Translations under genes and position numbers: made by a program
Notes under the pieces: generated by a model
Seen by the model: the letters and a program-made list of their open reading frames with translations, nothing else
Database searches by the model: none
What the model was told of the DNA's origin: nothing
Assembly: GCA_000372185.1 (NCBI GenBank)
Contig: AQUA01000005.1
Span: 1 to 64,000 of the forward strand
Direction of reading: 5' to 3'
DNA: 64,000 bases
Source of the DNA: an actinobacterium SCGC AAA278-O22
GTDB lineage: Bacteria > Actinomycetota > Actinomycetes > Nanopelagicales > Nanopelagicaceae
In this document: positions 11,353 through 25,964 of the stretch, in pieces
Layout: every line of letters starts with the position of its first letter
Numbering within the stretch: position 1 is the first letter of the stretch

Positions 11353-13335
11353 TCGTTTAAGCGAATCGCGAACTACAGCAGCATCGCTAGTGCGCCACAG
11401 TGGTGGCATTGAGTTAAGTAGGACACTTCCATAGCGTTTTGTCACGATACGTGAATCAAGAATTGCGACAACTCCACGATCATCAATACTGCGAATCAAA
11501 CGGCCAGTCCCCTGCGCCAATAAGAGCGCAGCACGCGGCACTGATACCTGCATAAATCCACTACCTCCTGATGCATCAGCGAGTGAAGATCGCGCAGACA
11601 TAACAGGTTCATCGGGGCGAGGAAATGGAATTCGGTCAATGGCCACCAAGATGCATGAATTTCCGGGCACATCGACGCCCTGCCACAATGACATCGTTCC
11701 TAAAAGAATGGATGTTTCATCTTTTGCAAAACGTTCAACAAGTGGGCCCACTGCATCGCCACGTTTTTGCGTGATGATCGAAATCGGAAGATCTACCAAC
11801 ACTTTTCGCAAATGTGCATCAGCTGCTTCGACTCCACGCCATGAACTAAAGAGCGCCAAGGTGCGACCACCTGCTGCATCAATCAGTTCGCCGAGTTCAT
11901 CTAACACTTCTTGGCTAGGGCCTTCACGGCCTGGCTCGGGTAGATGCTTAGGCATATACAAAACGCCCTGATTAGCAAAATCAAAAGGTGAACCCACATC
12001 GAGCATCTGCACATTGGCAGGATCAATATCTCCGGGTTCAATCTCCTCATCGGCATCAGAGCCCACTACGAAACCGATACTGCGCGCCATGGCATCAAAA
12101 TTATTTCCGACTGACAGGGTTGCAGAAGTTGCGATTACTGGATTTTTGGTTAACAAGTTACTGCGCAGAACATGAGATACCGATAGCGGTGCTAAATGCA
12201 ATGTAGAAAATGTTGGTTCATACCAGAGCACATGTTCGTTGCCCATCTTGAGCAACTTGCCAGCTGTTGTTGCAATCTCTTGTACCGCACCTTTGACGCG
12301 GGCACGTTCGGCATTTTCATCGGGATCGATAATCTCATCATCGGCATTAATCAATTGAATGAGCGTTGTGGCAGCCTCTTTTACCTTACGGATTGGCGCC
12401 TCTAGCGAAGATGGGATTTCTTCGAGCCTGCCTTGCGCAGCAAAGTCACCTTTAACGGATTGGCCATAATCTTCCATCGCATCATGGAAACTATCTGCTG
12501 CATTGGTAAATCCATCTGATGGTTTTCCGGGCATAAATTTGCGAGCCATAGCGGCAGCTCGTTGCACGCGTCCTGACGTTAGCTCTTCCGTTACTGCCTG
12601 CGTTGTGCGATCCATAAATTCATGGGCTTCATCCAAAATCACTGCATCACGTTCGGGCAAGATGGGATGAGAATCAACAATTTCAATAGCCAGCAAGGTG
12701 TGGTTGGTAACGACTACATCGGCATCTTGTGCTTTTGCCTTTGCCTTTGCTGCAAAACATTGTGCGCCCCATGCACAAGAATCAGCACCTACACATTCGC
12801 GGCCCGATAGAGAATTTGCTGCCCAGACTCTGCGATCTACTTCAGGTGCATCATCGCGATCTCCTGAAACACCTGGAGTCTTCGCCCACGCAATAAGTCT
12901 CTTGGCATCCTTCTCTAAATAGGATGCTTCGAGTAGTACCTCTGCATCAGGATCTGGTTCATCTGCATTCATCTTCTGCAGACAGACATAGTTGCCCACA
13001 CCTTTATAAATTGCATAGGTAATGTCGCGACCGAGCTCTTTCTCAAGTGCTGGAACAACAGCAGGCAGATCGCGTTCGACTAGCTGACGTTGCAGTGCAA
13101 GCGTTGCAGTTGCCACCAATACTTTGCGGCCGTGAACTAGCGCTGGAATGAGATAGGCCAGTGATTTTCCGGTGCCCGTACCTGCTTGGACCATGAGGTG
13201 ATGGCGATCTGTCAGCGCATTGGCAACTGCTTCGGCCATTTCAATCTGGCCTTCACGCGCAGAGCCTCCGATAGCGGTGACAGCAGCATCGAGTGCGCTT
13301 CGCACCTGTGCTGAAAGATCGCTCACGGTGCGCAC
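11335..13335 (-). CDS. dinG: DinG/XPD-family ATP-dependent DNA helicase
   Basis: About 666 residues, superfamily 2 iron-sulfur helicase. Motif I is QAGTGTGKSLAYLIPAL; motif II is VILDEAHEF. Four cysteines between them (NYVCLQK, RECVG, DSCAWG, AQCFA) fit the [4Fe-4S] cluster of XPD/DinG enzymes, followed by VVTNHTLL. C-terminal motifs include LFSSWRGVE, MSLWQGVDVPG and QGTGRLIRS. Such enzymes unwind R-loops and D-loops in repair. There is no exonuclease domain. Two GTG starts compete, 13335 and 13326; the second lies 7 bases after a TAGAGT -10-like element and would be leaderless. Its 3' end overlaps the NUDIX gene by 18 bases. Confidence 0.85.
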   Translation of the reverse strand: MRTVSDLSAQVRSALDAAVTAIGGSAREGQIEMAEAVANALTDRHHLMVQAGTGTGKSLAYLIPALVHGRKVLVATATLALQRQLVERDLPAVVPALEKELGRDITYAIYKGVGNYVCLQKMNADEPDPDAEVLLEASYLEKDAKRLIAWAKTPGVSGDRDDAPEVDRRVWAANSLSGRECVGADSCAWGAQCFAAKAKAKAQDADVVVTNHTLLAIEIVDSHPILPERDAVILDEAHEFMDRTTQAVTEELTSGRVQRAAAMARKFMPGKPSDGFTNAADSFHDAMEDYGQSVKGDFAAQGRLEEIPSSLEAPIRKVKEAATTLIQLINADDEIIDPDENAERARVKGAVQEIATTAGKLLKMGNEHVLWYEPTFSTLHLAPLSVSHVLRSNLLTKNPVIATSATLSVGNNFDAMARSIGFVVGSDADEEIEPGDIDPANVQMLDVGSPFDFANQGVLYMPKHLPEPGREGPSQEVLDELGELIDAAGGRTLALFSSWRGVEAADAHLRKVLVDLPISIITQKRGDAVGPLVERFAKDETSILLGTMSLWQGVDVPGNSCILVAIDRIPFPRPDEPVMSARSSLADASGGSGFMQVSVPRAALLLAQGTGRLIRSIDDRGVVAILDSRIVTKRYGSVLLNSMPPLWRTSDAAVVRDSLKRLRDSL

Positions 13336-13344
13336 TCTATCTTT

Positions 13345-14223
13345 CTACGCAGTCGTTTCGCTCTTAACCACAAGGTAAACGCCCAATAGGAGTAGCGCAC
13401 CTGCAATCAATTGGACCACTCCTAGCTTTTGTCCAAATGCGAAGTACCCAATAATTCCGGCAACCAGTGGATTAACAAATGCAAATGATGTAAGTAGCGC
13501 CGGTGAGACTCTGCGAGAAATTCCAAGATATGCCCAATACTGCGAAGCAAGGGCGATAATCAGAAAGATCATGGTGGGGTTAAGTACATCTTGTATGTGC
13601 ACCGCAGGTGCCTTCATCACAAAGTGAACTATTGTGGTTCCAATTGCTCCAATAAATACTTGGAGAAATATGGCGAAGATAAGCGGGTAGCCACTTTCGT
13701 ATTTGATCCAGATCTCAGTCGCGGCAAACCAAGCAAAGGTAGAGAGTAATGCCGCGAAGATTCCAGCAATTTGTACGCTTCCTTGAGGTGCACCGATGAG
13801 AAAGACCATAGCAATGGATGCAACTACTACCCCACTTGTTGCAAGTCGAGAAGGTCGCTGGCCCTTAAGTGCGAGGAAAATAATCGACATCGCAGGAAGC
13901 GTTGAATAGAGAAGTGATGTGATGGCACCCGGAATTCGTGAGCTCGACCATGCCAACGAGATGCTGCACAACGGCGAATACATCGCGGAAGAAATCACAA
14001 TAGGGATAAATGACCTATCGAATCTAAAAGTGTGTGGAGATTTCGGCGCCAAAATGAGTACTGCCAGAAAGAGAATCGTCGCCGATCCCCACGCTCGAAT
14101 CAACACGATATTTATCGGATTAATGGTTTCAGCAGCATGTGAGAGAAATGGATAGATGCCACCACCAACAAACCACATCACACCCACCCCAAAGATGGTC
14201 ATGCGGTTGAGTCGAGTGCTCAT
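13345..14223 (-). CDS. EamA/DMT-family transporter
   Basis: About 292 residues in roughly ten hydrophobic segments arranged as two EamA repeats (first from MTIFGVGVMWFVGGGIYPF, second from GIFAALLSTFAWFAATEIW). It ends with GALLLLGVYLVVKSE, typical of drug/metabolite exporters of the inner membrane. The substrate is unknown. It lies 6 bases after the dehydrogenase at 14230 on the same strand, so it is likely the last gene of the accessory metabolic operon and might export a pathway product. The ATG at 14223 is preferred; a TTG precedes it. Confidence 0.8.
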   Translation of the reverse strand: MSTRLNRMTIFGVGVMWFVGGGIYPFLSHAAETINPINIVLIRAWGSATILFLAVLILAPKSPHTFRFDRSFIPIVISSAMYSPLCSISLAWSSSRIPGAITSLLYSTLPAMSIIFLALKGQRPSRLATSGVVVASIAMVFLIGAPQGSVQIAGIFAALLSTFAWFAATEIWIKYESGYPLIFAIFLQVFIGAIGTTIVHFVMKAPAVHIQDVLNPTMIFLIIALASQYWAYLGISRRVSPALLTSFAFVNPLVAGIIGYFAFGQKLGVVQLIAGALLLLGVYLVVKSETTA

Positions 14224-14229
14224 CAACTC

Positions 14230-15120
14230 TTACTTAAAGCGAAGTGGGGTGTTGGTGTCATCCTCGTACATCTTTGCTGGAATCATCTCGCCCGCCTTAT
14301 CGCCGTAACGAGCACGTGCTCTGCGGTAAACATTTTCGACAGTTGCTCCAACTTCCATTGGTACACCGACAGATCGAGCAAGATCGCCAGCTAAACGCAA
14401 GTCCTTACACGCAAGCGCAACTGCAAATCCCTCGTCGTAATCGCCATCTTTGAGCATTCCAAGGATGTCGCGTTCAAGAAGAATTGAGTTACAAGGTGAT
14501 CCAACGAGAGATTGGCGAAGAGTTTCAAGATCTACACCAGCTTTGACTCCAAGTAGTAGTGCTTCGGTAGTTGCGACGAAAGAGTTGAACCAGAGCATAT
14601 TGAGAACAAGTTTTACAGCATACCCAGTTCCGCGTTTTCCGCAGTTAAAGAATTTTTCGGGATCTCCCATGATGTCAAAGAGTGGTTTCGCATATGCAAA
14701 GTCTGCAGGATCTCCTCCGGCAAAGATCGACATGGTTCCTTTATCTGCGCCTACAGACATTCCTGCAACGGGTGCATCGATGATGCGCACAGTCTTATCA
14801 AAGGATTTCTCAACGATGGCTGCGGTTTCAGGCACTGATGTTGACATATCAATCCACATCGAACCTGGTTTCATCGCGGCAGCCACACCGCTAGTGACCA
14901 TGCAGCCTTCAATTGCTTGAGGAGTTGGCAGCATTGTGATGAGTACATCTGCTCCGGTCACGCATTCGACTCCTGAAGTTGCAGCTTTGGCGCCAGCAGC
15001 AATCGGCTTCTGCATGCTCTCTTTATTGAGATCAAAGACAGTGATGTCGATACCTGCTGCAGCGAGGTTGCGCGACATGCTTCCGCCCATACTGCCTGTT
15101 CCGATAAATGCGACCTTCAC
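14230..15120 (-). CDS. NAD(P)-dependent beta-hydroxyacid dehydrogenase (HIBADH/tartronate-semialdehyde-reductase family)
   Basis: 296 residues. The N-terminal Rossmann fold has FIGTGSMGGSMSRNLAAAG; DAPVAGMSVGADKGTMSIF is the substrate-binding loop; KLVLNMLWFNS carries the family's catalytic lysine. Members reduce or oxidise 3-hydroxyisobutyrate, tartronate semialdehyde, beta-hydroxypropionate or succinic semialdehyde; the exact substrate is open. GTG start at 15120 with AAGGGAG upstream. It is followed closely by the EamA exporter and preceded by an aldehyde dehydrogenase and a MR/MLE enzyme, which suggests successive steps on a small hydroxy or aldehyde acid. Confidence 0.82.
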   Translation of the reverse strand: MKVAFIGTGSMGGSMSRNLAAAGIDITVFDLNKESMQKPIAAGAKAATSGVECVTGADVLITMLPTPQAIEGCMVTSGVAAAMKPGSMWIDMSTSVPETAAIVEKSFDKTVRIIDAPVAGMSVGADKGTMSIFAGGDPADFAYAKPLFDIMGDPEKFFNCGKRGTGYAVKLVLNMLWFNSFVATTEALLLGVKAGVDLETLRQSLVGSPCNSILLERDILGMLKDGDYDEGFAVALACKDLRLAGDLARSVGVPMEVGATVENVYRRARARYGDKAGEMIPAKMYEDDTNTPLRFK

Positions 15121-15146
15121 TTATTGCTCCCTTTGTAGTGATTAAT

Positions 15147-16637
15147 TTAGGAAAGATCTACCCACGTAGTTTTTAGCGCACTGTAATTATTGAGCGCATG
15201 GAGGGACTTATCGCGCCCTGCACCCGAACCGTTAAACCCACCAAATGGAGTGATGACATCTGACATATCAAAGGTGTTGACCCACACTGTTCCTGCGCGA
15301 AGTTTGCGAGCAAAATTATGAGCTCGTGAAATATCGCCCGACCACACGGATGCAGCTAAACCGTATTCGGTGCCATTGGCTTTTGCTAGCGCATCAGCTT
15401 CGTCTTTTGCATCGACAGCGACAATGACTGGACCAAAGATTTCCTCTTGAGAGAGAACTGATTCATGCTTGACTCCATCAATCAGAGTTGGCTTGATGAG
15501 ATTGTCATCGCCAGTTGGCTGATTTCCGCCATACACAAATGATTCGCCATTCTTGCCCACCATGTTGAGGTAGTGATTGACGCGATCGCGTTGCTGAGTA
15601 GAGACGATGGGACCCATATAGACACTTGGATCCAGGCAATCTCCTATTGGGAAGGTGTCCACAAACTTCGACATCTTTTCAAAGAGCGCCTCTTTAATCT
15701 TCTGCCCATGAATGATCACGCGAGAACCTGCGTTACATGTTTGACCTGCGTTGTAATAAATGCCCCACGCGATTGTGGAGGCGCATGCATCGAGATCCTT
15801 CACATCATCGAGAACAACCTGTGGACTCTTTCCGCCGAGTTCGAGAGCTACCTGCTTCATATTTGATTCAGCTGCATACTGCAGCATCTTGCGACCGGTT
15901 GGACCGCTCCCTGTAAATGCCAACTTAGCCACATCCATGTGGCGAGCAAGTGCTTGTCCTGCCTCTGGTCCAAGTCCAGTGACAACGTTAAAGACACCGT
16001 TCGGAATTCCAGCTTCTGTTGCAAGTCGAGCCAGAAGAATTGCAGATAGCGATGATTGCTCTGCTGGTTTTAGAACGACGCTATTTCCCATTGCAAGTGC
16101 CGGTGCAACTTTCCACGAAGCGATAATCATCGGATAGTTCCAAGGGACGACGGCACCGATTACTCCAAGTGGTTCGCGGGTAATCATGGCGAGAGCGTTA
16201 CGTGGCGCAGGTGCAATTTCATCGTAAGTTTTATCTATTGCCTCGCCATACCACTGCACGGTGCGAGCACAACCCATGACATCGACATTGAGCGAATCAG
16301 ATATGGGCTTGCCGACATCGAGAGTTTCAAGGAGGGCTAACTCTTCTTGGTGCTCGCGGATGAGATCAGCCCATTTGAGCATGATTGCTTTCTTATCGCG
16401 CGGATTCATCTCGCGCCAGATACCTGAGTCAAAGGCGGACTTGGCTGCAGAAACTGCGCGGTTCACATCTTCGGTATCGCCTGCAGCAATCTTTGCAATG
16501 ACGCGTTGATCGCGAGGAGAAATATCATCAAATGTTTTTCCGCTTGCAGAGTCAACATAAGCACCGTTGATATACATGCGTGATTCAGGCTTAAGTTCGA
16601 GGGCGCGCTTTATCCAAGCATCTTTATCGAGTGCCAC
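15147..16637 (-). CDS. NAD(P)-dependent aldehyde dehydrogenase
   Basis: 496 residues, standard ALDH superfamily length. Seen: VVPWNYPMIIASWKVAPALAMGN, the catalytic glutamate in LELGGKSPQ, the nucleophilic cysteine in NAGQTCNAGSR, and EEIFGPVI near the C-terminus. It oxidises an aldehyde to an acid in the cytoplasm. It resembles the broad-specificity branch that includes betaine-aldehyde and gamma-glutamyl-aminobutyraldehyde dehydrogenases. Start is GTG at 16637 with an AAGGAG ribosome binding site. It lies between the MR/MLE enzyme (11 bases) and the HIBADH-like gene (26 bases), in the block downstream of the quaternary-amine importer. Confidence 0.88.
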   Translation of the reverse strand: MALDKDAWIKRALELKPESRMYINGAYVDSASGKTFDDISPRDQRVIAKIAAGDTEDVNRAVSAAKSAFDSGIWREMNPRDKKAIMLKWADLIREHQEELALLETLDVGKPISDSLNVDVMGCARTVQWYGEAIDKTYDEIAPAPRNALAMITREPLGVIGAVVPWNYPMIIASWKVAPALAMGNSVVLKPAEQSSLSAILLARLATEAGIPNGVFNVVTGLGPEAGQALARHMDVAKLAFTGSGPTGRKMLQYAAESNMKQVALELGGKSPQVVLDDVKDLDACASTIAWGIYYNAGQTCNAGSRVIIHGQKIKEALFEKMSKFVDTFPIGDCLDPSVYMGPIVSTQQRDRVNHYLNMVGKNGESFVYGGNQPTGDDNLIKPTLIDGVKHESVLSQEEIFGPVIVAVDAKDEADALAKANGTEYGLAASVWSGDISRAHNFARKLRAGTVWVNTFDMSDVITPFGGFNGSGAGRDKSLHALNNYSALKTTWVDLS

Positions 16638-16648
16638 TGTAATTCTCC

Positions 16649-17752
16649 TTATGCAACTGACTTTTTGAAGTGAGACCAGTTTGGTTCAATTCCAAGTCCT
16701 GCGCCAGAAGGAACATGGAGTAATCCATCACTGCCTACAGTGAGCGGCTTTGCCATAAGGAAATCGCGACGTTCGCTGGTCCAGGTAGGTGGGTCGAACG
16801 GAAATTCGATAAATGGAGCTCCGCCGATTCCTGCGGTGACATGCAAATTGGCAGCTAGTCCATATCCATTGGACCAGGTGTGAGGAGTAAAGATATGGCC
16901 ACGCGCATTGGCACGTCGGGCAATCTCACGTGAGCGTTCCATCCCCGCAGCCAGAACTACATCTGCTTGAATAATATCGAGCGCATCGTTATCAATGATG
17001 GTGTTGATTTCGTGGATTGTACGAACCATTTCGCCGCCGGCAATGCGAGTACCTCGTCCACGCAACTTCTTAAGGCCCTCTAGGTCTTCCATTGGAAGTG
17101 GTTCTTCAATCCAATAAACGCCGTAGTCAACTGCTTGATCGACAAACTTCATCGCCGTAGCTACATCAATTGACTTACGAGTATCTCCAGGCATGCGCCA
17201 CGCCTGGTTAAGGTCAACCATGATTTCGAGATCTGAACCAATCGCTTCTCGAATTTGTTTGAGTGTTTCTATTCCTAAATCGAGTTGAGTTTGTGGCACA
17301 CGAATTTTCATCGCTGTAAATCCAGCATCACGTATTGCAACTGCACTTGCTGCTCGTTCAGGGGCGGTCATGATTGCTCCTGTTGATGCATACGCGGGTA
17401 TGGAATCTTCGGCGCCACCAAAGAGCGAAGCCACTGTCTCGTGCTTTGCTTTACCAATAGCATCCCAAATTGCGACTTCTATCGGCCAATAGCGACCTGC
17501 ATGAAAAGTAATTGTCTCGAGAGTGCGCACATGTTCTTCAATATCAAAGAGATCTTTACCGATGAAGTGTTTCTCATATCCTTCGAATCCCCCCATGTCA
17601 TCGCCTGCGCCGTAACCAATGATTCCGCCATCGGTTTCAACAATGGTCAGCGTTGCGCCAAAGGTGCGACGTGGTGTGGGGTCCCAGTTTGGACAGAAAG
17701 GCGGATCGAGCTGCAACGTTGCTCGCTCGAAACGAATATTCGTGATCTTCAT
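16649..17752 (-). CDS. Enolase-superfamily (mandelate racemase / sugar-acid dehydratase) enzyme
   Basis: 367 residues. Metal-binding and acid/base residues of the mandelate racemase branch are visible: KIRVP (catalytic KxR), MVDLNQAW (first metal Asp), WIEEPL and AGGEM (second and third metal carboxylates), then DIIQADV and FTPHTW, giving an Asp-His dyad. These enzymes take a proton next to a carboxylate and then racemise or dehydrate a hydroxy acid such as a sugar acid. The substrate cannot be named. It sits between the Fae homologue (52 bases away) and the aldehyde dehydrogenase, in one apparent operon. Confidence 0.82.
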   Translation of the reverse strand: MKITNIRFERATLQLDPPFCPNWDPTPRRTFGATLTIVETDGGIIGYGAGDDMGGFEGYEKHFIGKDLFDIEEHVRTLETITFHAGRYWPIEVAIWDAIGKAKHETVASLFGGAEDSIPAYASTGAIMTAPERAASAVAIRDAGFTAMKIRVPQTQLDLGIETLKQIREAIGSDLEIMVDLNQAWRMPGDTRKSIDVATAMKFVDQAVDYGVYWIEEPLPMEDLEGLKKLRGRGTRIAGGEMVRTIHEINTIIDNDALDIIQADVVLAAGMERSREIARRANARGHIFTPHTWSNGYGLAANLHVTAGIGGAPFIEFPFDPPTWTSERRDFLMAKPLTVGSDGLLHVPSGAGLGIEPNWSHFKKSVA

Positions 17753-17804
17753 CGAAGGTGCTCGACTCTTTCAGGTAGAAGGAAAATTCTATTTATCTAA
17801 AGAT

Positions 17805-18305
17805 TTATTGCCTAAAGAATGGGTTGGCGACATTTTCAGTTGCCTTCATGACATCAGCAGCAGTTGGTTTACCGGACTTGCCATTGGTGAGCGCATCAAT
17901 CATGGCTTGACGTTGATTTCTAAAAACCTCTTCTTCATCGTTTGCAGATGGGTTGAGCCACACTGCTGCAACGATGACGAGATCATCGGTTTTATTGACA
18001 TCAATGACTCCTGCACGAAGTGCCTCGCCAACACCTGCAGCTACTCCAGCTTGCGCTGCTCCCCATGTGAAGAGACCATGCTGATCATTTTCAACTGCTG
18101 CCTTATTTACAAAGAGCGTGGGTGGAGTTACTGCAATTCCTGGTTGAGCAACGACCATAAACGGAACGTGCCCCGCGCGCGGAGTGGCAAGGGCAGTTGC
18201 CCATGCCACTCCAGCGGGTCCAGATCTGGCACCAAGGATTGTGTTGGTGTGAGCCGCATTGGGCCCAGAGCCCACAAATCCTTCGCCGATCTGGATTTCA
18301 ATCAT
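17805..18305 (-). CDS. fae: Formaldehyde-activating enzyme (Fae) family protein
   Basis: 166 residues. The sequence follows Fae throughout: IGEGFVGSGPNAAHTNTILG (the His equals the conserved Fae histidine), PPTLFVNKA, FTWGAAQAGVAAGVGEAL, DDLVIVAAVWLNP and a C-terminal FRNQRQAM block. Methylotroph Fae condenses formaldehyde with tetrahydromethanopterin; homologues exist in organisms without that cofactor, with less certain roles. No other pterin-pathway gene is in the window. It starts 5 bases after the binding-protein stop and is followed by the MR/MLE and aldehyde dehydrogenase genes, so it belongs to the IclR-flanked importer operon. Formaldehyde handling during breakdown of a methylated substrate is a reasonable inference, not shown. 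Confidence 0.85.
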   Translation of the reverse strand: MIEIQIGEGFVGSGPNAAHTNTILGARSGPAGVAWATALATPRAGHVPFMVVAQPGIAVTPPTLFVNKAAVENDQHGLFTWGAAQAGVAAGVGEALRAGVIDVNKTDDLVIVAAVWLNPSANDEEEVFRNQRQAMIDALTNGKSGKPTAADVMKATENVANPFFRQ

Positions 18306-18309
18306 TTCT

Positions 18310-19242
18310 TTACTTCACCAACCCTGATGCTGACAAGAAGCTCTTCGCAACTGTGTCTGCATCTTCTCCGAGAACGTCAACGCGAGCGTTGAGGTTCTGC
18401 ATTGTTGCATTGCTGATCTTTGCCGCAATTGGAGCCAAAGCCTTTACAAGCTGTGGGTACTTCTTTGCAGTTGCATCAGTCATTGTCAATGCAGCGTTGT
18501 ATGGAGGGAAGTATGAAATATCTTCCTGAGGAACCATCAAGCCAAGAGCTCCGATACGTCCATCAGTTGCGAATACTTCACCGACCATGCACTGTCCATC
18601 CTTAGTTGCCTGATAGATAGCACCTGTATCGAGAACCTTGGTTGTGATATTTGAATCTGAGATGCTGTACGCCTTCTTAAATCCTGCCCATCCATCTGGA
18701 CGGCTCTGGAATTCAGATTCAACGCACCAAGCAGAACCTGCAGGAAGCTTCTTTGCAAGATCTGAGTATGTCTTAATGCCGTACTTAGTTGCATTTGCCT
18801 TAGTAATTGCCCATGCATAAGTATCGTTAAATGATGTCATTGGGAGCCATGTCACTTTTGCAGCCTTGTCTCCTGCAACTACCTTCTTGTAAAGCACATC
18901 TGGTGCGATATTCACATCAGTCTGCTTCTGGTACACAAGCCATGCTGTTCCGGTGTATTCCCAGTACATGTTGATGTCGCCAGAGACCATAGCTTCACGA
19001 GTTGTTGATGAACCCTTGATATTTGTCTTATCTACAACTTTTCCACCATTGGCGAGAATGAATTGCGTCACAATCTTCGAGAGAACGATTGACTCTGTGA
19101 AGTCCTTCGAACCAACGATGACGCTTACTCCCTTGAGGGATTTTCCAGCTGCGTTAGCTGATGTTGATGTTGCTGCTGATCCGACAACTGCGAGAGCAAT
19201 TGCAGCTGCAATAGCAACTACTTTGTGGCTTTTTACCTGCAT
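18310..19242 (-). CDS. Glycine betaine/choline-type ABC transporter substrate-binding protein
   Basis: 310 residues. The signal peptide runs to about residue 32 (AIAAAIALAVVGSAATS, ANA cleavage). The mature part has VIVGSKDFTESIVLSKIV and MYWEYTGTAWLVY, hallmarks of OpuCC/OsmF-type proteins binding quaternary ammonium compounds; it ends with AKSFLSASGLVK. It is exported and feeds the two permeases at 19263 and 21016. The ATG follows a GGAAGGG ribosome binding site. It lies 20 bases after the second permease gene and directly before the Fae homologue, a strong sign that import and the following enzymes serve one pathway. Confidence 0.88.
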   Translation of the reverse strand: MQVKSHKVVAIAAAIALAVVGSAATSTSANAAGKSLKGVSVIVGSKDFTESIVLSKIVTQFILANGGKVVDKTNIKGSSTTREAMVSGDINMYWEYTGTAWLVYQKQTDVNIAPDVLYKKVVAGDKAAKVTWLPMTSFNDTYAWAITKANATKYGIKTYSDLAKKLPAGSAWCVESEFQSRPDGWAGFKKAYSISDSNITTKVLDTGAIYQATKDGQCMVGEVFATDGRIGALGLMVPQEDISYFPPYNAALTMTDATAKKYPQLVKALAPIAAKISNATMQNLNARVDVLGEDADTVAKSFLSASGLVK

Positions 19243-19262
19243 TTTTTACCCTTCCTTAGGTA

Positions 19263-20054
19263 TTAAATCCCTCGTGGTCGAAGGAGTTCTTCAGCAGCAC
19301 GCGCCAACCAATCCATTGTGAATGCAACGATGACCGTCAACATTCCGCCGGTGACTAGAACGAGCTCCCGATTGAGCTTTAGGCCAGGAATGATGAGCGT
19401 TCCTAGACCTCCACCATTAACGAAGACACCAAGAGTGGCTACGCCAACGGTAAGAATGAGTGTGGTGCGAACACCTGCCAGAATGACTGGCACTGCGAGT
19501 GGAAGTTCAATCTGACGAAGCGCTTGCTTCGGCGTCATTCCCATACCCATCGCCGATTCGATAATAAAGGGGTCAATCTCTTGCAGTCCAACAATCGTGT
19601 TGCGCAATATGGGAAGAATTCCAAATGCTGCGAAAGAGAAAATGGCGATTGGTTTTCCAAAGCCAAAGAGAATTCCAGCGATGATGAGCACGCCCACTGC
19701 GGGAAAAGCCTGACCAATATTGGCAAGAATCAACACAATCGGTGTGAACTTCTTATAGCGACGACGAGTAAGCAATATGCCGGCAGGAACTGCAACTGCA
19801 AGGATGACTGCAGCTGATGCAAATGAGAGAATCAAATGATCTTGAATTGCTCTGAAGATAAATTTCTTATTGATTGTCACCTTTTCGATAACATCAAGAT
19901 GAGCCTGGCTGAGAGTGATGGCAAGAGCTGCCGATAAAACGAGAATCAAAATCGGTTGAATAATGAGTGAACGGTGGCGCTTAAATATTAAACGGGCAGA
20001 TTGCGAGTAAAGCGACCCCGCTGTGAGATTTGGTTGTGCTAACGCTTTAGCCAT
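19263..20054 (-). CDS. Quaternary-amine-type ABC transporter permease
   Basis: 263 residues with about six hydrophobic segments and the binding-protein-dependent permease (EAA) loop ESAMGMGMTPKQALRQIELP. Related to OpuCB/OpuCD and YehW/YehY. It has an N-terminal cytoplasmic tail of about 25 residues. It starts 3 bases after the ATPase gene and probably forms a heteromeric pore with the permease at 21016. Confidence 0.87.
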   Translation of the reverse strand: MAKALAQPNLTAGSLYSQSARLIFKRHRSLIIQPILILVLSAALAITLSQAHLDVIEKVTINKKFIFRAIQDHLILSFASAAVILAVAVPAGILLTRRRYKKFTPIVLILANIGQAFPAVGVLIIAGILFGFGKPIAIFSFAAFGILPILRNTIVGLQEIDPFIIESAMGMGMTPKQALRQIELPLAVPVILAGVRTTLILTVGVATLGVFVNGGGLGTLIIPGLKLNRELVLVTGGMLTVIVAFTMDWLARAAEELLRPRGI

Positions 20055-20057
20055 TTT

Positions 20058-21023
20058 CTACTTTGCTCCTGCTCGGGTATGGCTGATTGCGCTTTGCAGA
20101 GCTTCAAAGGTGAGGTGTCCGCGAGCACCAATATTGATTGCTTTTGCACCAGTAATGAAACCCTCCATCGCTTCACGCAGAGTTGCACTCTCGGAAAGTG
20201 TCGGTCCATCAACTGATCCCGGTGCAACAGAGACGCTAGCTAGCGAAACAAGTCCCAACATGCGCACGCTGGCTGCCTCACCAACAAAACTTTCGACCTT
20301 CTTTGTTGCTGGTGCTGAAAGGATTTCCAATGGGGTTCCGTACTGCTCCACCTTTGACTGGTCAGAAAGAACAGCAATTCGATCGCCAAGAAGGAGAGCT
20401 TCCTCAAAGTCGTGAGTCACGAAGACAACAGTCTTCTTGAGCTCACGTTGGAGCGCACGGAATTCTTTTTGTAGGCGAACGCGCGTAATGGGATCAGTAG
20501 CACCAAATGGTTCGTCCATGAGAAGTACAGCAGGGTCAGCCGCAAGTGCACGAGCAACACCTACGCGTTGTTGTTGTCCGCCAGAAAGTTGCTTGGGATA
20601 GCGAGATCCGTATTCAGAAGGATCGAGTCCGACAAGATCAAGTAGTTCATTCACTCGAGCACGCGTCTTTGATTTTTCCCAACCAAGTAATTGCGGAACA
20701 GTTGCTACGTTGTCCGCAATTGTCATGTGAGGGAAGAGGCCGATTTGCTGAATGACATAGCCAATATTGCGACGTAACTCATGCGCTGGTGTTTTAGTGA
20801 CATCTTCGCCACCGATGACAATCCGGCCAGATGTTGGCTCAATAATGCGGTTAATCATCTTCATTGTGGTGGTTTTGCCGCACCCTGATGGTCCGACAAA
20901 GACAACACATTCGCCTGCAGGAATCACCAAGTTGAATTCGGAGACGGCATCCTTTGAAGTATTGGGATATCGCTTAGTGAGTTTTTCTAAGCGAATTTCT
21001 TGTCCATGCGTTGTATTAGACAC
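20058..21023 (-). CDS. Quaternary-amine-type ABC transporter ATP-binding protein
   Basis: About 321 residues. Walker A GPSGCGKTTTMKMIN, Q-loop YVIQQIGLFPHMT, signature LSGGQQQRVGVARAL, Walker B VLLMDEPFGATDP and switch FVTHD are all present; this pattern (with NRIIEPTSG) is that of OpuCA/ProV-type ATPases. The C-terminal 90 residues look like a reduced regulatory domain rather than a full CBS pair. I chose the GTG at 21023, whose GTGTCTAA overlaps the end of the upstream permease, implying translational coupling; the frame could also begin upstream at 21074. Confidence 0.87.
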   Translation of the reverse strand: MSNTTHGQEIRLEKLTKRYPNTSKDAVSEFNLVIPAGECVVFVGPSGCGKTTTMKMINRIIEPTSGRIVIGGEDVTKTPAHELRRNIGYVIQQIGLFPHMTIADNVATVPQLLGWEKSKTRARVNELLDLVGLDPSEYGSRYPKQLSGGQQQRVGVARALAADPAVLLMDEPFGATDPITRVRLQKEFRALQRELKKTVVFVTHDFEEALLLGDRIAVLSDQSKVEQYGTPLEILSAPATKKVESFVGEAASVRMLGLVSLASVSVAPGSVDGPTLSESATLREAMEGFITGAKAINIGARGHLTFEALQSAISHTRAGAK

Positions 21024-21711
21024 GTAGCCCCCTTGGCGTAGTAACACGTCGAACAAAGACGAAAAGACCATCAAATATCAGAGCCAGGATTGTGATGCCA
21101 AATGCTCCAACTAGAGTTTGATTCATGGAGTTAAAGGAGCCAAGATTGGCAAGTCCGCTGAAGAGATAATCTCCCAATCCTGGTCCACCGACATATGCGG
21201 CAATTGCTGAGATACCAAAGATCAACATGGCTGAGACGCGAATGCCAACAATAATGACGGGCCACGCGAGCGGAAATTGAATCTTTCGAAGAACGGTAAG
21301 TGGTTTCATGCCCATCGCCGCCGCAGATTCCATCACCGCAGGTTCGACAGAACGTAAACCAACGATGGTGTTACGCACAACCGGCAACTGTCCGTAGAGA
21401 ACCAGGGCGATTACCGCAGGCAACCAACCAAGACCAAAAGGCCCAATAAAGAAGATAAACATGGCAAGAGATGGAATCGTGAAGACCACCGACCAAAATC
21501 CTGTGACAGCTTCAGATGCAGCAGTTGATTTCCACACCACAAGTCCAGTGATGATGGCGGTAAATGAAACTAGTGCCATAACAAGTAAGACGAGTTCAAT
21601 CTGTGCAAGTACCGCACGCAGAATTTTTTCATGTTGGATATTGATAAATTGAAAAAGGTTCGGCGGCGTTAGTGGCACGATGATGTCTTCCAACAAATTC
21701 ACAAGCGCCAT
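21016..21711 (-). CDS. Quaternary-amine-type ABC transporter permease (first gene of the operon)
   Basis: About 231 residues, five to six membrane segments, with the EAA loop ESAAAMGMKPLTVLRKIQFP and the preceding GLRSVEP, like OpuCB/YehY permeases. It heads the leftward operon permease - ATPase - permease - binding protein - Fae - MR/MLE - aldehyde dehydrogenase - HIBADH - EamA. I chose the ATG at 21711 because the extra upstream codons overlap the divergent IclR promoter. The 59-base space to the IclR gene holds the likely control region. Confidence 0.85.
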   Translation of the reverse strand: MALVNLLEDIIVPLTPPNLFQFINIQHEKILRAVLAQIELVLLVMALVSFTAIITGLVVWKSTAASEAVTGFWSVVFTIPSLAMFIFFIGPFGLGWLPAVIALVLYGQLPVVRNTIVGLRSVEPAVMESAAAMGMKPLTVLRKIQFPLAWPVIIVGIRVSAMLIFGISAIAAYVGGPGLGDYLFSGLANLGSFNSMNQTLVGAFGITILALIFDGLFVFVRRVTTPRGLRV

Positions 21712-21732
21712 ATTGCTCCTGAGTCTGGGGGT

Positions 21733-21770
21733 GTTGCAATAGGCGCACCAAGAGTTGTACTGTCTGCAAC
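21733..21770. promoter_or_regulatory. Divergent control region between importer operon and IclR gene
   Basis: TTGCAA (21734-21739) and TACTGT (21758-21763), 18 bases apart, make a plausible promoter for the IclR gene; its ATG at 21771 lies 7 bases after the -10, so the message could be leaderless. GTTGCA (21733-21738) and TGCAAC (21765-21770) form an inverted repeat that could be the IclR operator. Both points are pattern readings only. Confidence 0.4.
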
Positions 21771-22538
21771 ATGCCAAATACGCCCGTTAGAAATAACGGT
21801 TTAGAGCGTGATCTCGAGATTATCGAGGCTGTCGCTGCAGCCTCCCCTATCCCCCAACGTAATGGCGACCTTGCGAATGCAACAAAGCGCGAGAAGAGCC
21901 AGGTATCTCGCGCTATTTCGAGACTTTTAGATAACGGTTTGTTATTACGACAAGGTGCAGGGGTGATAGTTGGCCCGCGACTATACGCAATTGCACGTTT
22001 TACCTTTGAAGCACAACTTGTCACCGCAGCTCGTGGAGAAATGCATGGACTTGTACATAAACTCGGAGAAACAGTTCACCTGACAGTGTTGCAAGGACTT
22101 GAAGTAGTCACAATCCATTCAGAATCACCAGCACATGGATTCCGTGCCTTAAGTTGGATGGGCGTGACTGCGCCTTCCTATATGACTTCATCGGGACGAG
22201 TGCTTCTCTCTGGCCTTGATGACGAGCAGATCGAAAGAATTTATCCTGCTAAGAAGAAAATCGAGGGTGCGCCACCTTTGTGCCTGACCAAAACTGGTGA
22301 AGAGCTGATTGCTGCTATACAGAAAATTCGCCGTGACGGCTATGCAACTGTTATTGAGGAATTTGAACCTGGACTCGTAGGTGCATCTGTACCAGTCCGA
22401 GATTTCAATGGTTCAATTGTGGCTGCCATCAACGTGGCTGCTCCTAAGGCGCGTTTTGAACCACATCTCATTGCAGCTGCTCAAGAGATGAAAAAGGCAG
22501 CAGACCGAATCACTCAATCACTCATAGCAAGTAAATAA
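21771..22538 (+). CDS. IclR-family transcriptional regulator
   Basis: 255 residues. The N-terminal winged helix-turn-helix is about residues 10-70 (EIIEAVAAAS, then SQVSRAISRLLDNGLLLR). The C-terminal IclR effector domain has MTSSGRVLLSGL, RRDGYATVIEEFEPGLVGASVPV and NVAAPKARF. It probably controls the divergent nine-gene importer/enzyme operon and the alcohol dehydrogenase 23 bases downstream. IclR proteins usually sense a small aromatic or carboxylic effector; the identity here is unknown. Confidence 0.88.
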   Translation: MPNTPVRNNGLERDLEIIEAVAAASPIPQRNGDLANATKREKSQVSRAISRLLDNGLLLRQGAGVIVGPRLYAIARFTFEAQLVTAARGEMHGLVHKLGETVHLTVLQGLEVVTIHSESPAHGFRALSWMGVTAPSYMTSSGRVLLSGLDDEQIERIYPAKKKIEGAPPLCLTKTGEELIAAIQKIRRDGYATVIEEFEPGLVGASVPVRDFNGSIVAAINVAAPKARFEPHLIAAAQEMKKAADRITQSLIASK

Positions 22539-22561
22539 ACTCCAACGAGCAAAGGCAGAAG

Positions 22562-23698
22562 ATGAACGCATTTACACTCACACCGGGATCAGTCAATATT
22601 CGATTTGGAGCAGGTTCTGTCTCTCAGTTGCCCGAAGTAATTGCCGGACTCAATAAGAAGAAGGTCTTTATTGTCACTGACCCCGGAGTGGCGGCTGCTG
22701 GGGTGCTTGCAAAAGTTGAAGCAATTTTGAAGAGCGCTGGTTTAGAGTCAGCGTCATACACTGAGATCAAGCCGAACCCCACAACGACGCTGATTGATAA
22801 TGCTGCAAAGGTGGGCGTTAATTTCGGAGCAGATTGCATTGTTGCACTCGGTGGTGGCTCATCCCTCGATTCATCAAAGGGAATTGCACTTGTAGTGGCT
22901 AATCCAACTTTCTCTTCAGCGAAATTTGATTACTCCATTAGCCCTGAACGACCAGCGCTCCCCATCATCGCAATTCCAACCACATCGGGAACTGGATCTG
23001 AGACAAATAACTGGGGCGTCATTGATGATCCAATTCGCCAATGTAAATTCTATGTTGGAGATGCCAGCACGACTCCGATTGCTGCCATTTTGGATCCTGA
23101 ACTCACTGTTGGACTCCCACCACGTCCCACTGCAGGTACCGGAATTGATGCACTTACTCATGCAATCGAATCTCTTACTTCAAGAGGTCGCACACCCGTC
23201 TCTGCGGCGTATGCGCACGAAGCAATAAAATTAATTTCAAAAGCACTTCCTATTGCAGTAAAAGAAGGTTCCAATATCGATGCTCGAGGCGATATGTTAA
23301 TGGGAGCGCACTTAGCTGGACTTGCTCTCACCTTATCTGGACTAGGACTCGTTCACGGAATTGCGCATTCTGTTTCTGCTCACGTCGGTGCAGCACACGG
23401 CGAAGCGCTTGCCACAGTTCTCCCCGAGGTTATGGAATTTAATGCACGCGAAGTTTCAGATATTTATGCAACTGTCGGAAACGATATGGGCGTCTCTGCA
23501 AACTCCGCTACAGCAATCGATGCAGTACGTGATCTCTCAGAATCAATCAACATCCGCAACTCGCTTTCTCACTATGGCGTGAAGCAAGAGATGATCGGTG
23601 AGATTGCCAAGACTGTTCTTGCTGACTCAGTGACAAGTAATAACCCAATTGCACCCACTGAAGGTGAAGTTCAGGGAATCCTGACTTCCCGCCTCTAA
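22562..23698 (+). CDS. Iron-type (group III) alcohol dehydrogenase
   Basis: 378 residues. NAD-binding GGGSSLDSSKGIAL and TTSGTGSETNNWGVI, followed by metal ligands in GIDALTHAIESL and LVHGIAHSVSAHVGAAHG, mark a group III metal-dependent alcohol dehydrogenase. Related enzymes act on methanol, ethanol, 1,3-propanediol, lactaldehyde or maleylacetate; specificity is not readable. An AAAGG ribosome binding site lies before the ATG, and it is co-directional with the IclR gene. With Fae across the divergent promoter, production or removal of formaldehyde is an attractive but unproven role. Confidence 0.87.
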   Translation: MNAFTLTPGSVNIRFGAGSVSQLPEVIAGLNKKKVFIVTDPGVAAAGVLAKVEAILKSAGLESASYTEIKPNPTTTLIDNAAKVGVNFGADCIVALGGGSSLDSSKGIALVVANPTFSSAKFDYSISPERPALPIIAIPTTSGTGSETNNWGVIDDPIRQCKFYVGDASTTPIAAILDPELTVGLPPRPTAGTGIDALTHAIESLTSRGRTPVSAAYAHEAIKLISKALPIAVKEGSNIDARGDMLMGAHLAGLALTLSGLGLVHGIAHSVSAHVGAAHGEALATVLPEVMEFNAREVSDIYATVGNDMGVSANSATAIDAVRDLSESINIRNSLSHYGVKQEMIGEIAKTVLADSVTSNNPIAPTEGEVQGILTSRL

Positions 23699-23702
23699 AG
23701 AT

Positions 23703-24278
23703 TTAATGTAGTTCGGGATCTGCTTCGCCTTCAGACCACTTTGTAAAGGTGGTTTTTAATCCAGCGCGCGTTGGCGCACATGCCATTGGTCCTGCGCTCC
23801 AGGTGCGCGAAGGATCAAGCGGAGCTACGCGAAGTAGGCGTAAATCGCCACCTATTCCGGCTCGAATAGTTACGGCATCTCCTGATCTGCTGGCGCGAAC
23901 TGTGACTTCCTTATTCATCCACTCGGGAACTTGCGCAACAGACCAATCAGATTTCACTGACGTCACAACTGCGCCTGCCTGCGGGAAACCATCGCAGAAT
24001 TCAACTCCGGCCTTTATCCAATGTTCTGGGCCGCTGGTAATAAAGATTCCTGCTTGATCGAACTGTTCTGTGTAATTGAGAATAAAGGAGACTTCAACCG
24101 CAGAATCTTGTGGGAATTCCTTCACGAGCGCATGGCCATCATCATGGATAAATCCATACGAGGTAGTGCGCCACCAATCGCTGCCCTCGAAGGATTCGAT
24201 GACCAGTGATGAACCCGCTTCGACAACAGATGCCGGATTGCGCGTCCAGGTACCGGCGTTCCAGGGAATGTTTTTCAT
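23703..24278 (-). CDS. DUF1349 family protein
   Basis: About 191 residues. WRTTSYGFIHDDGHALVKEF, then EQFDQAGIFITSGPEHWIKAGVEF and a C-terminal GPMACAPTRAGLKTTFTKW match the DUF1349 family (concanavalin-like beta sandwich, related to yeast Ree1 and bacillar YteT-neighbourhood proteins). No signal peptide, so cytoplasmic. The function is not established; a carbohydrate-related role is often assumed. It starts 7 bases after ribH and so reads as the last gene of the riboflavin operon, an unusual companion. Its end lies 4 bases from the convergent alcohol dehydrogenase end. Confidence 0.75.
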   Translation of the reverse strand: MKNIPWNAGTWTRNPASVVEAGSSLVIESFEGSDWWRTTSYGFIHDDGHALVKEFPQDSAVEVSFILNYTEQFDQAGIFITSGPEHWIKAGVEFCDGFPQAGAVVTSVKSDWSVAQVPEWMNKEVTVRASRSGDAVTIRAGIGGDLRLLRVAPLDPSRTWSAGPMACAPTRAGLKTTFTKWSEGEADPELH

Positions 24279-24285
24279 ATCCAAG

Positions 24286-24741
24286 TTACATTCCTAAGAG
24301 AGCAAGAGCAGCAATGGCGCTGTCATAACCCTTATCTTCTTTACTTCCGGCCCGGCCAGAACGAGCGATTGCTTGCTCGAGATCGTTGCACATCAAAACA
24401 CCGTAACCAATTGGTTTTGAGAATTTCAGCTGGACATCAATGACGCCTTGGGTAACTCCTTGGCAGACATAATCAAAGTGTGGGGTTTCACCTTTGAGTA
24501 CAAGACCTACTGCAACCACTGCGTCGTAACCTTTTTCAAAGGCCTTCTGCGCAGCAAGTGGAATTTCGAAGGACCCTGGAACAAAAATGACTTTAATTTT
24601 CTTCACTTCTGCCGCTTCAAGTGCACGAGTGGCACCTGCAATGAGATCGTTACATATATCAAGGTGCCATGATGAAGAGATGATGGCGACCTTTGCCTTG
24701 GGAAATTTCGGTACTGCGATATCTGGTGCGTGGCCGGCCAT
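24286..24741 (-). CDS. ribH: 6,7-dimethyl-8-ribityllumazine synthase
   Basis: 151 residues, the usual lumazine synthase length. It condenses 3,4-dihydroxybutanone phosphate with the ribitylaminopyrimidine. Motifs: ATRALEAAEV, VPGSFEIPLAAQKA (substrate-binding loop), AVGLVLKGETPHFDYVC with the catalytic His, and GVLMCNDLEQAIARSG. Its ATG overlaps the ribBA stop as TAATG, so translation is coupled. Confidence 0.95.
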   Translation of the reverse strand: MAGHAPDIAVPKFPKAKVAIISSSWHLDICNDLIAGATRALEAAEVKKIKVIFVPGSFEIPLAAQKAFEKGYDAVVAVGLVLKGETPHFDYVCQGVTQGVIDVQLKFSKPIGYGVLMCNDLEQAIARSGRAGSKEDKGYDSAIAALALLGM

Positions 24742-25964
24742 TACTCTCCTCCTGTGCGATGCGCTGAATTGTGCCCCAGGCGATCTGCCTTAGTGGCAAG
24801 GTATTTCTCATTAAATTCATTAGGTTCAATAACAAGTGGAACTTGCGTGCAGGCAATTCCACTCTCAGCTACCGCCCTTACTTTTTCGGGGTTATTGGTA
24901 AGAAGTTGGATGGTTGTCAGGTTGAGATTTTTCAGAATGGCGATAGCTTCAGTCCAATCGCGTGAATCAACAGAGTGACCTAACTGTAGATTGGCATCGA
25001 CTGTGTCGAGTCCCTGATTTTGCAGTATATACGCCTTGAGTTTTTCAGTAAGTCCAATGCCGCGACCTTCGTGATCGCGTAGATATAGCACGTATCCATA
25101 GCCATACTCTTCAATAGCTGCGATTGAGCGTTTCAATTGTTCGCCACAATCACAACGCTGAGAGTGAATGACATCTCCCGTAAAGCATTCAGAGTGCATG
25201 CGCACAAGTGGTGGCTTATCACCAGCACCAAAGCGCATCACTACTTGCTCGCGATGTTTCAATGATGGGTAGGTTGCCAAACTCCAGAGTCCATTTTCGA
25301 GTTGAACATCAACCCATTCGAATTGGTGACGCGGATAGTTGACGACGCGAGGTAGCGGCGATAACGATGCTTGGTGCTGCTTGATCTCTGCAATCGAAAT
25401 AATTGGGATGTGATTTTCGAGGGCGAACTGTGTAAGGGTTTCACCACGCGCCATCGATCCATCTTCGGCAACAATTTCAGAGAGAAGCGCTGCTGGATAT
25501 GACCCAGTCAGCTCAGCTAGCGCAATTCCTGCCTCTGTATGTCCTCCACGGGCTGCCAAACCATCCTTATGTGCGATAAGCGGATAGACATGTCCTGGGC
25601 GGATAAAGTCAGTAGCGCGTGATGTTGCACTTCCGAGAGCGCGAATTGTCGCAGTGCGCTCGATAGCGCTGACTCCCGTCGTGATTCCTTCTGCCAGATC
25701 GATTGAAACTGTAAATGCAGTCTTACGTACATCTTGGCTCTGTTCGACCATATAGGGAAGCCGGAGTTGATGTGCGTGCTCTGCAGTGATTGCTACACAC
25801 AAGATTCCGGTGGTGTGACGGACCATAAAAGCGGTCTTTTCGGCAGTGGCATGTTCTGCCAACATAATGAGATCACCTTCATTTTCGCGATCGTGATCAT
25901 CAACAACGATCACCATCTCTCCACGGCGGAAGCGATCGAGTGCCTCAAGGAAATTATTCGGCAC
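24741..25964 (-). CDS. ribBA: Bifunctional DHBP synthase / GTP cyclohydrolase II
   Basis: 407 residues with two full domains. The N-terminal 3,4-dihydroxy-2-butanone-4-phosphate synthase shows MVIVVDDHDRENEGDLIMLAE and the RPGHVYPL / RGGHTEAGI blocks. The C-terminal GTP cyclohydrolase II shows MHSECFTGDVIHSQRCDCGE with the three zinc cysteines and YLRDHEGRGIGL. It supplies both starting branches of riboflavin synthesis. It starts at a GTG (25964) overlapping the end of ribE by 11 bases and is followed by ribH with a 1-base overlap. Confidence 0.95.
   Translation of the reverse strand: MPNNFLEALDRFRRGEMVIVVDDHDRENEGDLIMLAEHATAEKTAFMVRHTTGILCVAITAEHAHQLRLPYMVEQSQDVRKTAFTVSIDLAEGITTGVSAIERTATIRALGSATSRATDFIRPGHVYPLIAHKDGLAARGGHTEAGIALAELTGSYPAALLSEIVAEDGSMARGETLTQFALENHIPIISIAEIKQHQASLSPLPRVVNYPRHQFEWVDVQLENGLWSLATYPSLKHREQVVMRFGAGDKPPLVRMHSECFTGDVIHSQRCDCGEQLKRSIAAIEEYGYGYVLYLRDHEGRGIGLTEKLKAYILQNQGLDTVDANLQLGHSVDSRDWTEAIAILKNLNLTTIQLLTNNPEKVRAVAESGIACTQVPLVIEPNEFNEKYLATKADRLGHNSAHRTGGE

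Follow-up and report, generated by a model that had tools for sequence, protein, structure and literature searches.

A window of 64,000 nucleotides, positions 1 to 64,000 of contig AQUA01000005.1 from the actinobacterium SCGC AAA278-O22 (Nanopelagicaceae), contains an operon in which a homologue of the formaldehyde-activating enzyme Fae directly adjoins an enolase-superfamily enzyme of the MR/MLE family. With them lie an OpuC-type importer, an aldehyde dehydrogenase (ALDH), a HIBADH-like dehydrogenase and an EamA-type exporter and, divergently, an IclR-family regulator and an iron-containing alcohol dehydrogenase (Fe-ADH). This gene set is almost certainly a functional unit rather than a chance neighbourhood, and its Fae very probably does not use tetrahydromethanopterin (H4MPT). 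A pathway in which a solute is imported, its alcohol is oxidised to an acid, the acid undergoes elimination by MR/MLE and Fae acts, independently of H4MPT, on a one-carbon (C1) unit or other aldehyde is put forward as a possible but tentative reading of the whole. The route formed by MR/MLE, ALDH, alcohol dehydrogenase (ADH) and importer is conserved and occurs in part of an abundant group of freshwater bacteria.

Conservation and distribution of the cassette

The original prediction, made from the letters of the window, proposed that gene order be compared in related acI genomes. The order Fe-ADH-IclR, followed on the opposite strand by permease-ATPase-permease-binding protein-Fae-MR/MLE-ALDH-HIBADH-EamA, is intact in 10 of 14 loci compared (L007-L020), namely L007-L013, L015, L016 and L019, in which the label of the second permease often falls on the first and EamA is always retained alongside the cassette. 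Locus L014 is cut by both ends of its contig, the cassette of Meiothermus (L018) is rearranged, and in an Acidimicrobiaceae genome (L020) Fae adjoins a 2-oxoglutarate (2OG) oxygenase. The presumed acI relationship was borne out, as the nearest named relative is strain IMCC25003, with a Fae 97% identical and the same cassette in its complete genome (L007); a passage of PMC5301498 places this strain in tribe acI-A1.

The genus was represented by 135 genomes, many of which are incomplete; 10 carry MR/MLE and the identical 10 carry Fae, and in every one the two matches stand side by side with 40-64 bases between them. Rare in the genus yet whole, the cassette thus looks like the outcome of horizontal gain or repeated loss. 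Across 396 genomes of the phylum, Fae occurs in 17 and MR/MLE (E 1e-50 or better) in 46; the two coincide in 8 genomes, the window's own included, against 1.97 expected, and are adjacent in 8 of 8, although these statistics, like those for the genus, ignore shared ancestry and give rough p-values. Given the genus and phylum counts, chance insertion of Fae as a single gene is unlikely.

The 16 phylum Fae loci other than the window's fall into several contexts: seven adjoin MR/MLE (L045, L047, L049, L057-L060), seven adjoin a HalD-family 2OG oxygenase (L050-L056), one lies in a GABA/agmatinase-like cluster (L046) and one has neither neighbour (L048). A class-level search found Fae in 10 of 394 genomes, six of them new, of which L115, L116 and L119 adjoin MR/MLE, L117 and L120 adjoin HIBADH without MR/MLE, and L118 is without a recognised partner. 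In L119, from another family of the class, the cassette recurs at 39-58% identity in the order permease, ATPase, permease, binding protein, Fae, MR/MLE, ALDH, HIBADH and then Fe-ADH on the operon strand, with IclR divergent and no EamA seen. The transporter varies, being of the MFS type in three large genomes that carry the cassette (L045, L115, L116) and an oligopeptide-type importer in L057, L059 and L060.

The original prediction linked Fae to the importer and named Fae genes elsewhere without it as evidence to the contrary. The link holds in part: L021, L017, L117, L119 and L018 likewise have a betaine-type (OpuAC) importer next to Fae, but the association is not exclusive, Fae being found with MFS transporters in L045, L115 and L116, in Burkholderiales and in pairs with 2OG oxygenases.

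The Fae homologue

The Fae of the window scores 129.2 bits with TIGR03126, above the cut-off of 118.05, and also passes that of PF08714. Its predicted structure, for which an alignment took in 12 of the 14 loci L007-L020 (middling confidence, pLDDT 71, residues 41-72 poor), has the M. extorquens Fae structures 1y60 and 1y5y as its first Foldseek matches (TM 0.72-0.78, E 3.3e-10). Identity to canonical Fae is about 26-32%; among the best 40 of 53 matches of a plasmid search, proteins of H4MPT clusters are about 29-32% identical and a second group 44-55%.

Residues were compared at the presumed active-site and pterin-contact positions, as given for M. extorquens Fae in UniProt. All 36 non-canonical rows, of which 12 belong to the window and to relatives 76-97% identical to it, retain the catalytic His, Lys and Gln (H19, K68 and Q85), as do all four canonical rows, drawn from the plasmid-borne H4MPT clusters L063 and L064 and from two Methylocystis copies (L061); these counts leave aside L062 and the later stretches L107, L108 and L115-L120. 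The pterin-contact Asp of the four canonical rows is Asn in 35 of the 36 (N21 in the window) and Thr in the remaining one, while the Thr contact, also present in 4/4 canonical rows, is Ala in 13 (A70 in the window), Thr in 11 and some other residue in 12. Loss of the formaldehyde site, which the original prediction had named as fatal to it, is not observed, because the catalytic residues are kept. The protein resembles the Fae of methylotrophs and methanogens, an H4MPT hydro-lyase, in family score, fold and catalytic residues, and is unlike it in the Asn at the pterin contact, in its low identity and in its setting: canonical fae sits with mch and methylene-H4MPT dehydrogenase genes (L063, L064), whereas that of the window sits among ADH, ALDH and MR/MLE genes.

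The four canonical proteins group in the Fae tree as a single clade (100/100), whose long branch joins next to L021 (98/94), and linkage of Fae to MR/MLE requires at least three changes on starred branches; 15 of the 38 inner branches are open, and the long branches L062, L056 and L050 are unsure. Two plasmid loci have peculiarities of their own. A Methylobacterium 'aldehyde-activating protein' (L062:2989-3537), near genes for glutamate synthase and glutamate-ammonia ligase, is a divergent homologue with Glu for the catalytic His, and a Methylocystis iwaonis plasmid carries a tandem pair of fae genes (L061:5986-7170).

The cofactor of Fae

Tetrahydromethanopterin and tetrahydrofolate C1 genes were to be sought, by the original prediction, across the genome. 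The H4MPT markers Mch and beta-RFAP synthase each gave no match in 22 Fae-bearing genomes, while control genomes were positive; the 22 belong to 32 such genomes found, ten later finds lying outside the search; the window's own genome is 75% complete, and G051 (99%) is among the 22. The operon has no mch, methylene-H4MPT dehydrogenase or H4MPT biosynthesis genes; in L063 and L064, taken for comparison, fae has such genes next to it. Because both markers are missing from 22 of 22 genomes, a role of Fae in H4MPT-based methylotrophy is judged unlikely.

On the folate side, FolD is present in 5 of 6 Nanopelagicales genomes and missing only from the window's own, incomplete one. All acI strains are described as prototrophic for folic acid in a passage of PMC5301498; other passages of that source discuss the hexulose-6-phosphate synthase of two further acI strains in relation to formaldehyde, and Fae does not figure in them. 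From FolD and folic acid prototrophy, tetrahydrofolate is likely the tetrahydropterin at hand in these cells. It is also our preferred candidate acceptor for Fae, at a probability that we put rather low. With similarly low confidence, Asn-type Fae may either capture formaldehyde with tetrahydrofolate or act, pterin-free, on aldehyde-amine adducts, in each case within a new MR/MLE pathway. Passages of He et al. 2020 (PMC7073904) state that the uncatalysed reaction of formaldehyde with tetrahydrofolate is too slow to feed growth and that a tetrahydrofolate-accepting Fae variant may have evolved or could be evolved.

Asn-type Fae proteins are direct and cheap candidates for a putative enzyme that would join formaldehyde to tetrahydrofolate: catalytic residues are kept, H4MPT markers were not found and the pterin contact is changed. 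The label 'formaldehyde-activating enzyme', though earned by score, may mislead metabolic models.

The MR/MLE enzyme, importer and dehydrogenases

An alignment of 16 MR/MLE rows has conserved columns K-x-R, D-x-N, EEPL, A(A/G)GE, Q-x-D and PH(T/S)W, which presumably represent the Lys at the end of strand 2, three metal ligands and the His-Asp dyad. K-x-R is found in 16 of 16 rows, the metal-ligand and dyad patterns are common to all, and the window protein carries the residue pattern of the mandelate racemase subgroup. Beta-elimination after removal of a proton beside a carboxylate is common chemistry of the enolase superfamily. The nearest NCBIfam models are acid-sugar dehydratases, with L-talarate/galactarate dehydratase scoring highest (102.7 bits, cut-off 500); all 15 models listed fall far below their cut-offs, and the best solved relatives are 3ozm and 3h12. 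The enzyme thus shares the MR_MLE_C domain and the Lys, metal-ligand and His-Asp patterns with acid-sugar dehydratases (L-talarate/galactarate, galactonate, arabinonate), from which its group is set apart by these far lower scores and by K-x-R, WDPxPR (14 of 16 rows; absent in L042 and L043) and PPxWxxxxRD (16 of 16).

The importer has the composition of OsmF/OpuC systems, with an OpuAC-domain binding protein, two permeases and a ProV-like ATPase. The nearest solved relatives of the binding protein are osmoprotection and choline proteins, EgtU (ergothioneine), ProX, OpuBC/OpuC and acetylcholine and nicotine sensors; it shares EYTGT, TY, FATDG and PPY stretches with the acetylcholine-sensor precursor 6uru. 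Unlike known OpuC/OsmF/ProX importers, that of the window reaches no listed equivalog cut-off, and its quaternary-amine ligand is putative. In Meiothermus (L018) the importer is of another subtype, yet has an OpuAC binding protein (172 bits). The closest solved chains of the ALDH are 5iuu and KauB (6b4r). These relatives of the binding protein and of the ALDH, which lies near KauB/PuuC, favour an amine-bearing solute. The MFS transporter of L045, the oligopeptide-type importer of L057, L059 and L060 and the genes of L117 point instead to a possible sugar- or polyol-like acid as the substrate, or to substrates that may vary by lineage.

For comparison we take the GbsB/GbsA system of Bacillus, which oxidises choline to betaine. 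Like it, the window sets an Fe-type ADH and a BADH-like ALDH beside an Opu-type importer; unlike it, the window's enzymes lie under the equivalog cut-offs and MR/MLE, Fae and HIBADH are added.

MR/MLE without Fae and Fae without MR/MLE

Fae-less MR/MLE loci were inspected in stretches from 11 of the 38 phylum genomes of this kind, G401 (53% identity) lying outside the set. In the nine whose MR/MLE is at least 49% identical (L095-L103), ALDH is present in 9, an Fe- or Zn-type ADH in 8 and an OpuC-type binding protein in 7, that of L098 being confirmed as OpuAC; none of the three occurs in L105, which has an oligopeptide-type importer, or on the short contig L104. Because ALDH, ADH and the OpuC-type binding protein accompany MR/MLE even without Fae, importer, ADH, ALDH and MR/MLE are one module, to which Fae is not obligatory.

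Fae has other company in turn. The Streptomyces clavuligerus plasmid L021 has importer, Fae, HIBADH and a succinate semialdehyde dehydrogenase (SSADH); the Caballeronia and Burkholderia plasmids L022, L023 and L025 have Fae with an aldo-keto reductase (AKR), SSADH and an MFS transporter, with IclR seen in L022; and in Ensifer (L024) Fae accompanies SSADH and a reductase. The window and L119 combine the importer module with Fae and HIBADH, and L045, L115, L116 and Meiothermus L018 additionally have SSADH.

Several of these loci are informative in themselves. Between Fae and HIBADH of S. clavuligerus (L021:11086-11232) lies a 49-residue piece resembling an ALDH C-terminus (49% identical, E 1.3e-11), and no significant MR/MLE remnant was found there; judging by that piece, it is as if the locus were a Fae-MR/MLE-ALDH-HIBADH cassette that may have lost its middle. 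In L117:8643-15270, Fae-HIBADH-SSADH are followed by a KduD-like short-chain dehydrogenase/reductase (SDR), a GlcD-like FAD oxidase and an FGGY kinase in mostly overlapping open reading frames (ORFs), with a divergent IclR and an OpuC-type importer adjoining. Fae lies within a cluster of GABA-permease-like, agmatinase-like, SSADH and GABA transaminase genes in L046:5712-14488, L047 and L049, the latter two with an MR/MLE-ALDH-Fe-ADH block between Fae and SSADH. In L059 two Zn-type ADHs flank Fae-MR/MLE, their best models being NDMA-dependent and class III/mycothiol-dependent formaldehyde dehydrogenases, below cut-off.

A proposed pathway and its alternatives

In the first module of the proposed pathway, the OpuC-type importer would take up a small hydroxylated solute, probably quaternary-ammonium-like or similar; Fe-ADH and ALDH would convert its primary alcohol to a carboxylate; and MR/MLE would abstract the proton beside the carboxylate and eliminate water or an amine as the beta leaving group. 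This order of ADH, ALDH and MR/MLE has slightly more in its favour than against it. In the second module Fae, unlikely to be H4MPT-dependent, would take the aldehyde or C1 unit freed downstream, with tetrahydrofolate as its preferred partner (formaldehyde to methylene-tetrahydrofolate), and the HIBADH-like enzyme, joined in relatives by AKR plus SSADH, would finish the remaining short semialdehyde. The open-licence literature searched yielded no paper pairing Fae with the enolase superfamily; with mandelate racemase the match, from its accessible part, was a paper on Gfa, a different enzyme (other sources cited, from passages: PMC4776306, PMC8879981).

A number of observations weigh against this pathway. 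No formaldehyde-producing enzyme was recognised in the operon, and Rieske demethylases gave no match in six Nanopelagicales genomes, other demethylase families not being searched; a Rieske betaine demethylase was accordingly set aside as the formaldehyde source within the limits of that search. Release of a C1 unit from a methylated amine, as the original prediction had it, is therefore unproven, neither H4MPT genes nor a Rieske-type demethylase having been found. An HpcH/HpaI aldolase freeing formaldehyde from 2-oxo-4-hydroxybutyrate was also considered. Some match occurs in 14 of 14 genomes and a strong one in 10 (G000, G049 and G054 among them), but the match is weak in G051, which is a complete relative, and in G042, G013 and G204, so that the aldolase is not a constant partner; the weak matches of G051, G042 and G013 are frames of 482 amino acids that we take to be pyruvate kinase. 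MR/MLE occurs without Fae in 38 of 46 phylum genomes, importer and Fae occur without MR/MLE in the Actinomycetes metagenome-assembled genome L017, and Fae has no recognised partner in L048 and L118. Outside the MR/MLE and 2OG contexts Fae usually adjoins an SSADH-type dehydrogenase and a reductase (HIBADH or AKR), which suggests an aldehyde larger than formaldehyde. The Thr contact is retained in 11 of 36 Fae rows, and the attachment of the canonical four beside L021 means that Asn-type rows need not be a single clade. The binding protein scores 139.7 bits against an OsmF cut-off of 400.

In one alternative, Fae is a C-N (iminium or carbinolamine) hydro-lyase that would split an amine-aldehyde adduct produced by MR/MLE, or elsewhere by a 2OG oxygenase, into an amine and a semialdehyde, which HIBADH or AKR would reduce or oxidise and SSADH would oxidise, with neither a pterin nor free formaldehyde. 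This alternative, which we regard as somewhat unlikely, draws on the association of Fae with SSADH and a reductase in L022, L023, L025, L024, L021, L117 and L018, on the GABA-permease-like protein, agmatinase-like enzyme, SSADH and GABA transaminase of L046, L047 and L049, on the nearness of the window's ALDH to the KauB/PuuC aminoaldehyde dehydrogenases, and on a Fae that keeps the catalytic His, Lys and Gln and changes its pterin contact. It is at odds with the seven phylum Fae-2OG loci, whose stretches of 8.7-18 kb have no match to the ALDH, SSADH or AKR queries, and no activity of the Fae fold that does without a pterin is known to us.

Ordinary breakdown of a sugar acid or polyol, in which ADH and ALDH yield an aldonic acid, MR/MLE dehydrates it, HIBADH handles products like tartronate semialdehyde and Fae is an incidental detoxifier of aldehydes, was already offered as an alternative in the original prediction. 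It has gained weight from the dyad pattern and the talarate/galactarate dehydratase match of MR/MLE, below cut-off as this is, and its relatives 3ozm and 3h12, from the KduD-like SDR, GlcD-like oxidase and FGGY kinase of L117, and from the sugar-type MFS transporter of L045 with homologues in L115 and L116. We still think it unlikely: the window, L119 and seven of the nine Fae-less loci have an OpuAC-type importer, not a sugar importer, and the tie of Fae to MR/MLE in the genus is too strict for an incidental Fae. Demethylation of betaine or choline with capture of formaldehyde by Fae is a poor prospect. It would suit the OpuC-type importer and the matches, each short of its cut-off, of ALDH to BADH and of Fe-ADH to GbsB, but the cassette is conserved without a demethylase, those of the Rieske type are missing from 6 of 6 genomes, and we know of no MR/MLE step in choline-betaine breakdown.

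Fae with 2OG oxygenases

A HalD-family 2OG-Fe oxygenase directly adjoins Fae in eight loci, L020 (9279-10495) and L050-L056, the family being confirmed by Pfam for L020 and L051-L056 and resting for L050 on similarity to the L020 protein. As a rule, halogenases lack the Asp of the HxD motif; a halogenase role is unlikely here, because HxD is intact in 8 of 8 proteins. The pair may form a separate, second partnership of oxidative demethylase and formaldehyde trap. In L020 and in L054 and L056, two genomes of one family, it ends an array sucC-sucD-purH-metF-acyltransferase-mdh, which fits a tie to folate C1 metabolism but may be housekeeping order.

Operon layout and flanking genes

The features are listed in Table 1. 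The description of nine co-directional, tightly spaced genes divergent from IclR and Fe-ADH proved accurate in families and spacing: neighbouring minus-strand ORFs are 3-52 bases apart, with one pair overlapping. The span given for them, 14230-23698, covers the gene set apart from EamA, which lies outside it.

Table 1. Genes of the cassette, with positions in the window
Feature	Position	Strand	Basis
EamA-type exporter	13345..14226	-	PF00892
Beta-hydroxyacid dehydrogenase (HIBADH/tartronate-semialdehyde-reductase-like)	14230..15120	-	PF03446 + PF14833; top NCBIfam TIGR01505
ALDH, PuuC/KauB/BADH-like	15147..16637	-	PF00171, 529 bits
MR/MLE (enolase superfamily); K-x-R, D-x-N, E, E, His-Asp dyad pattern	16649..17752	-	PF13378
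Non-canonical Fae homologue (H19, N21, K68, Q85)	17805..18305	-	PF08714, 156 bits
OpuAC/OsmF/ProX-type substrate-binding protein	18310..19242	-	PF04069, 190.5 bits
ABC permease, OpuC/ChoW-like	19263..20054	-	PF00528; TIGR03416, 70.3 bits, below cut-off
ABC ATPase, ProV-like	20058..21074	-	TIGR01186, 305 bits, slightly below cut-off 326.6
ABC permease	21016..21777 (mechanical TTG start)	-	PF00528, 78.6 bits
IclR-family regulator, divergent	21771..22538	+	TIGR02431, 109.9 bits, below cut-off
Iron-containing ADH (lactaldehyde-reductase/GbsB-like)	22562..23698	+	PF00465

The HIBADH-like protein scores 185.4 bits with TIGR01505, under the cut-off of 340.75, and Fe-ADH scores 293.7 bits with TIGR02638 and 261.1 bits with NF053866, neither reaching cut-off. 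A likelier start for the permease at 21016..21777 is the ATG near 21711 (MALVNLLEDII). No inverted repeat that could be an operator candidate was found in the IclR/permease intergenic region.

Beyond EamA and on the same strand lies a gene that we take to be DinG-like (11335-13335), and the other flank (23703-27561) presumably holds riboflavin-type genes. The cassette stands without homologues of these flanks, in the stretch covered, in L012, L013 and L015, and homologues of both are present in L007-L009 and L011.

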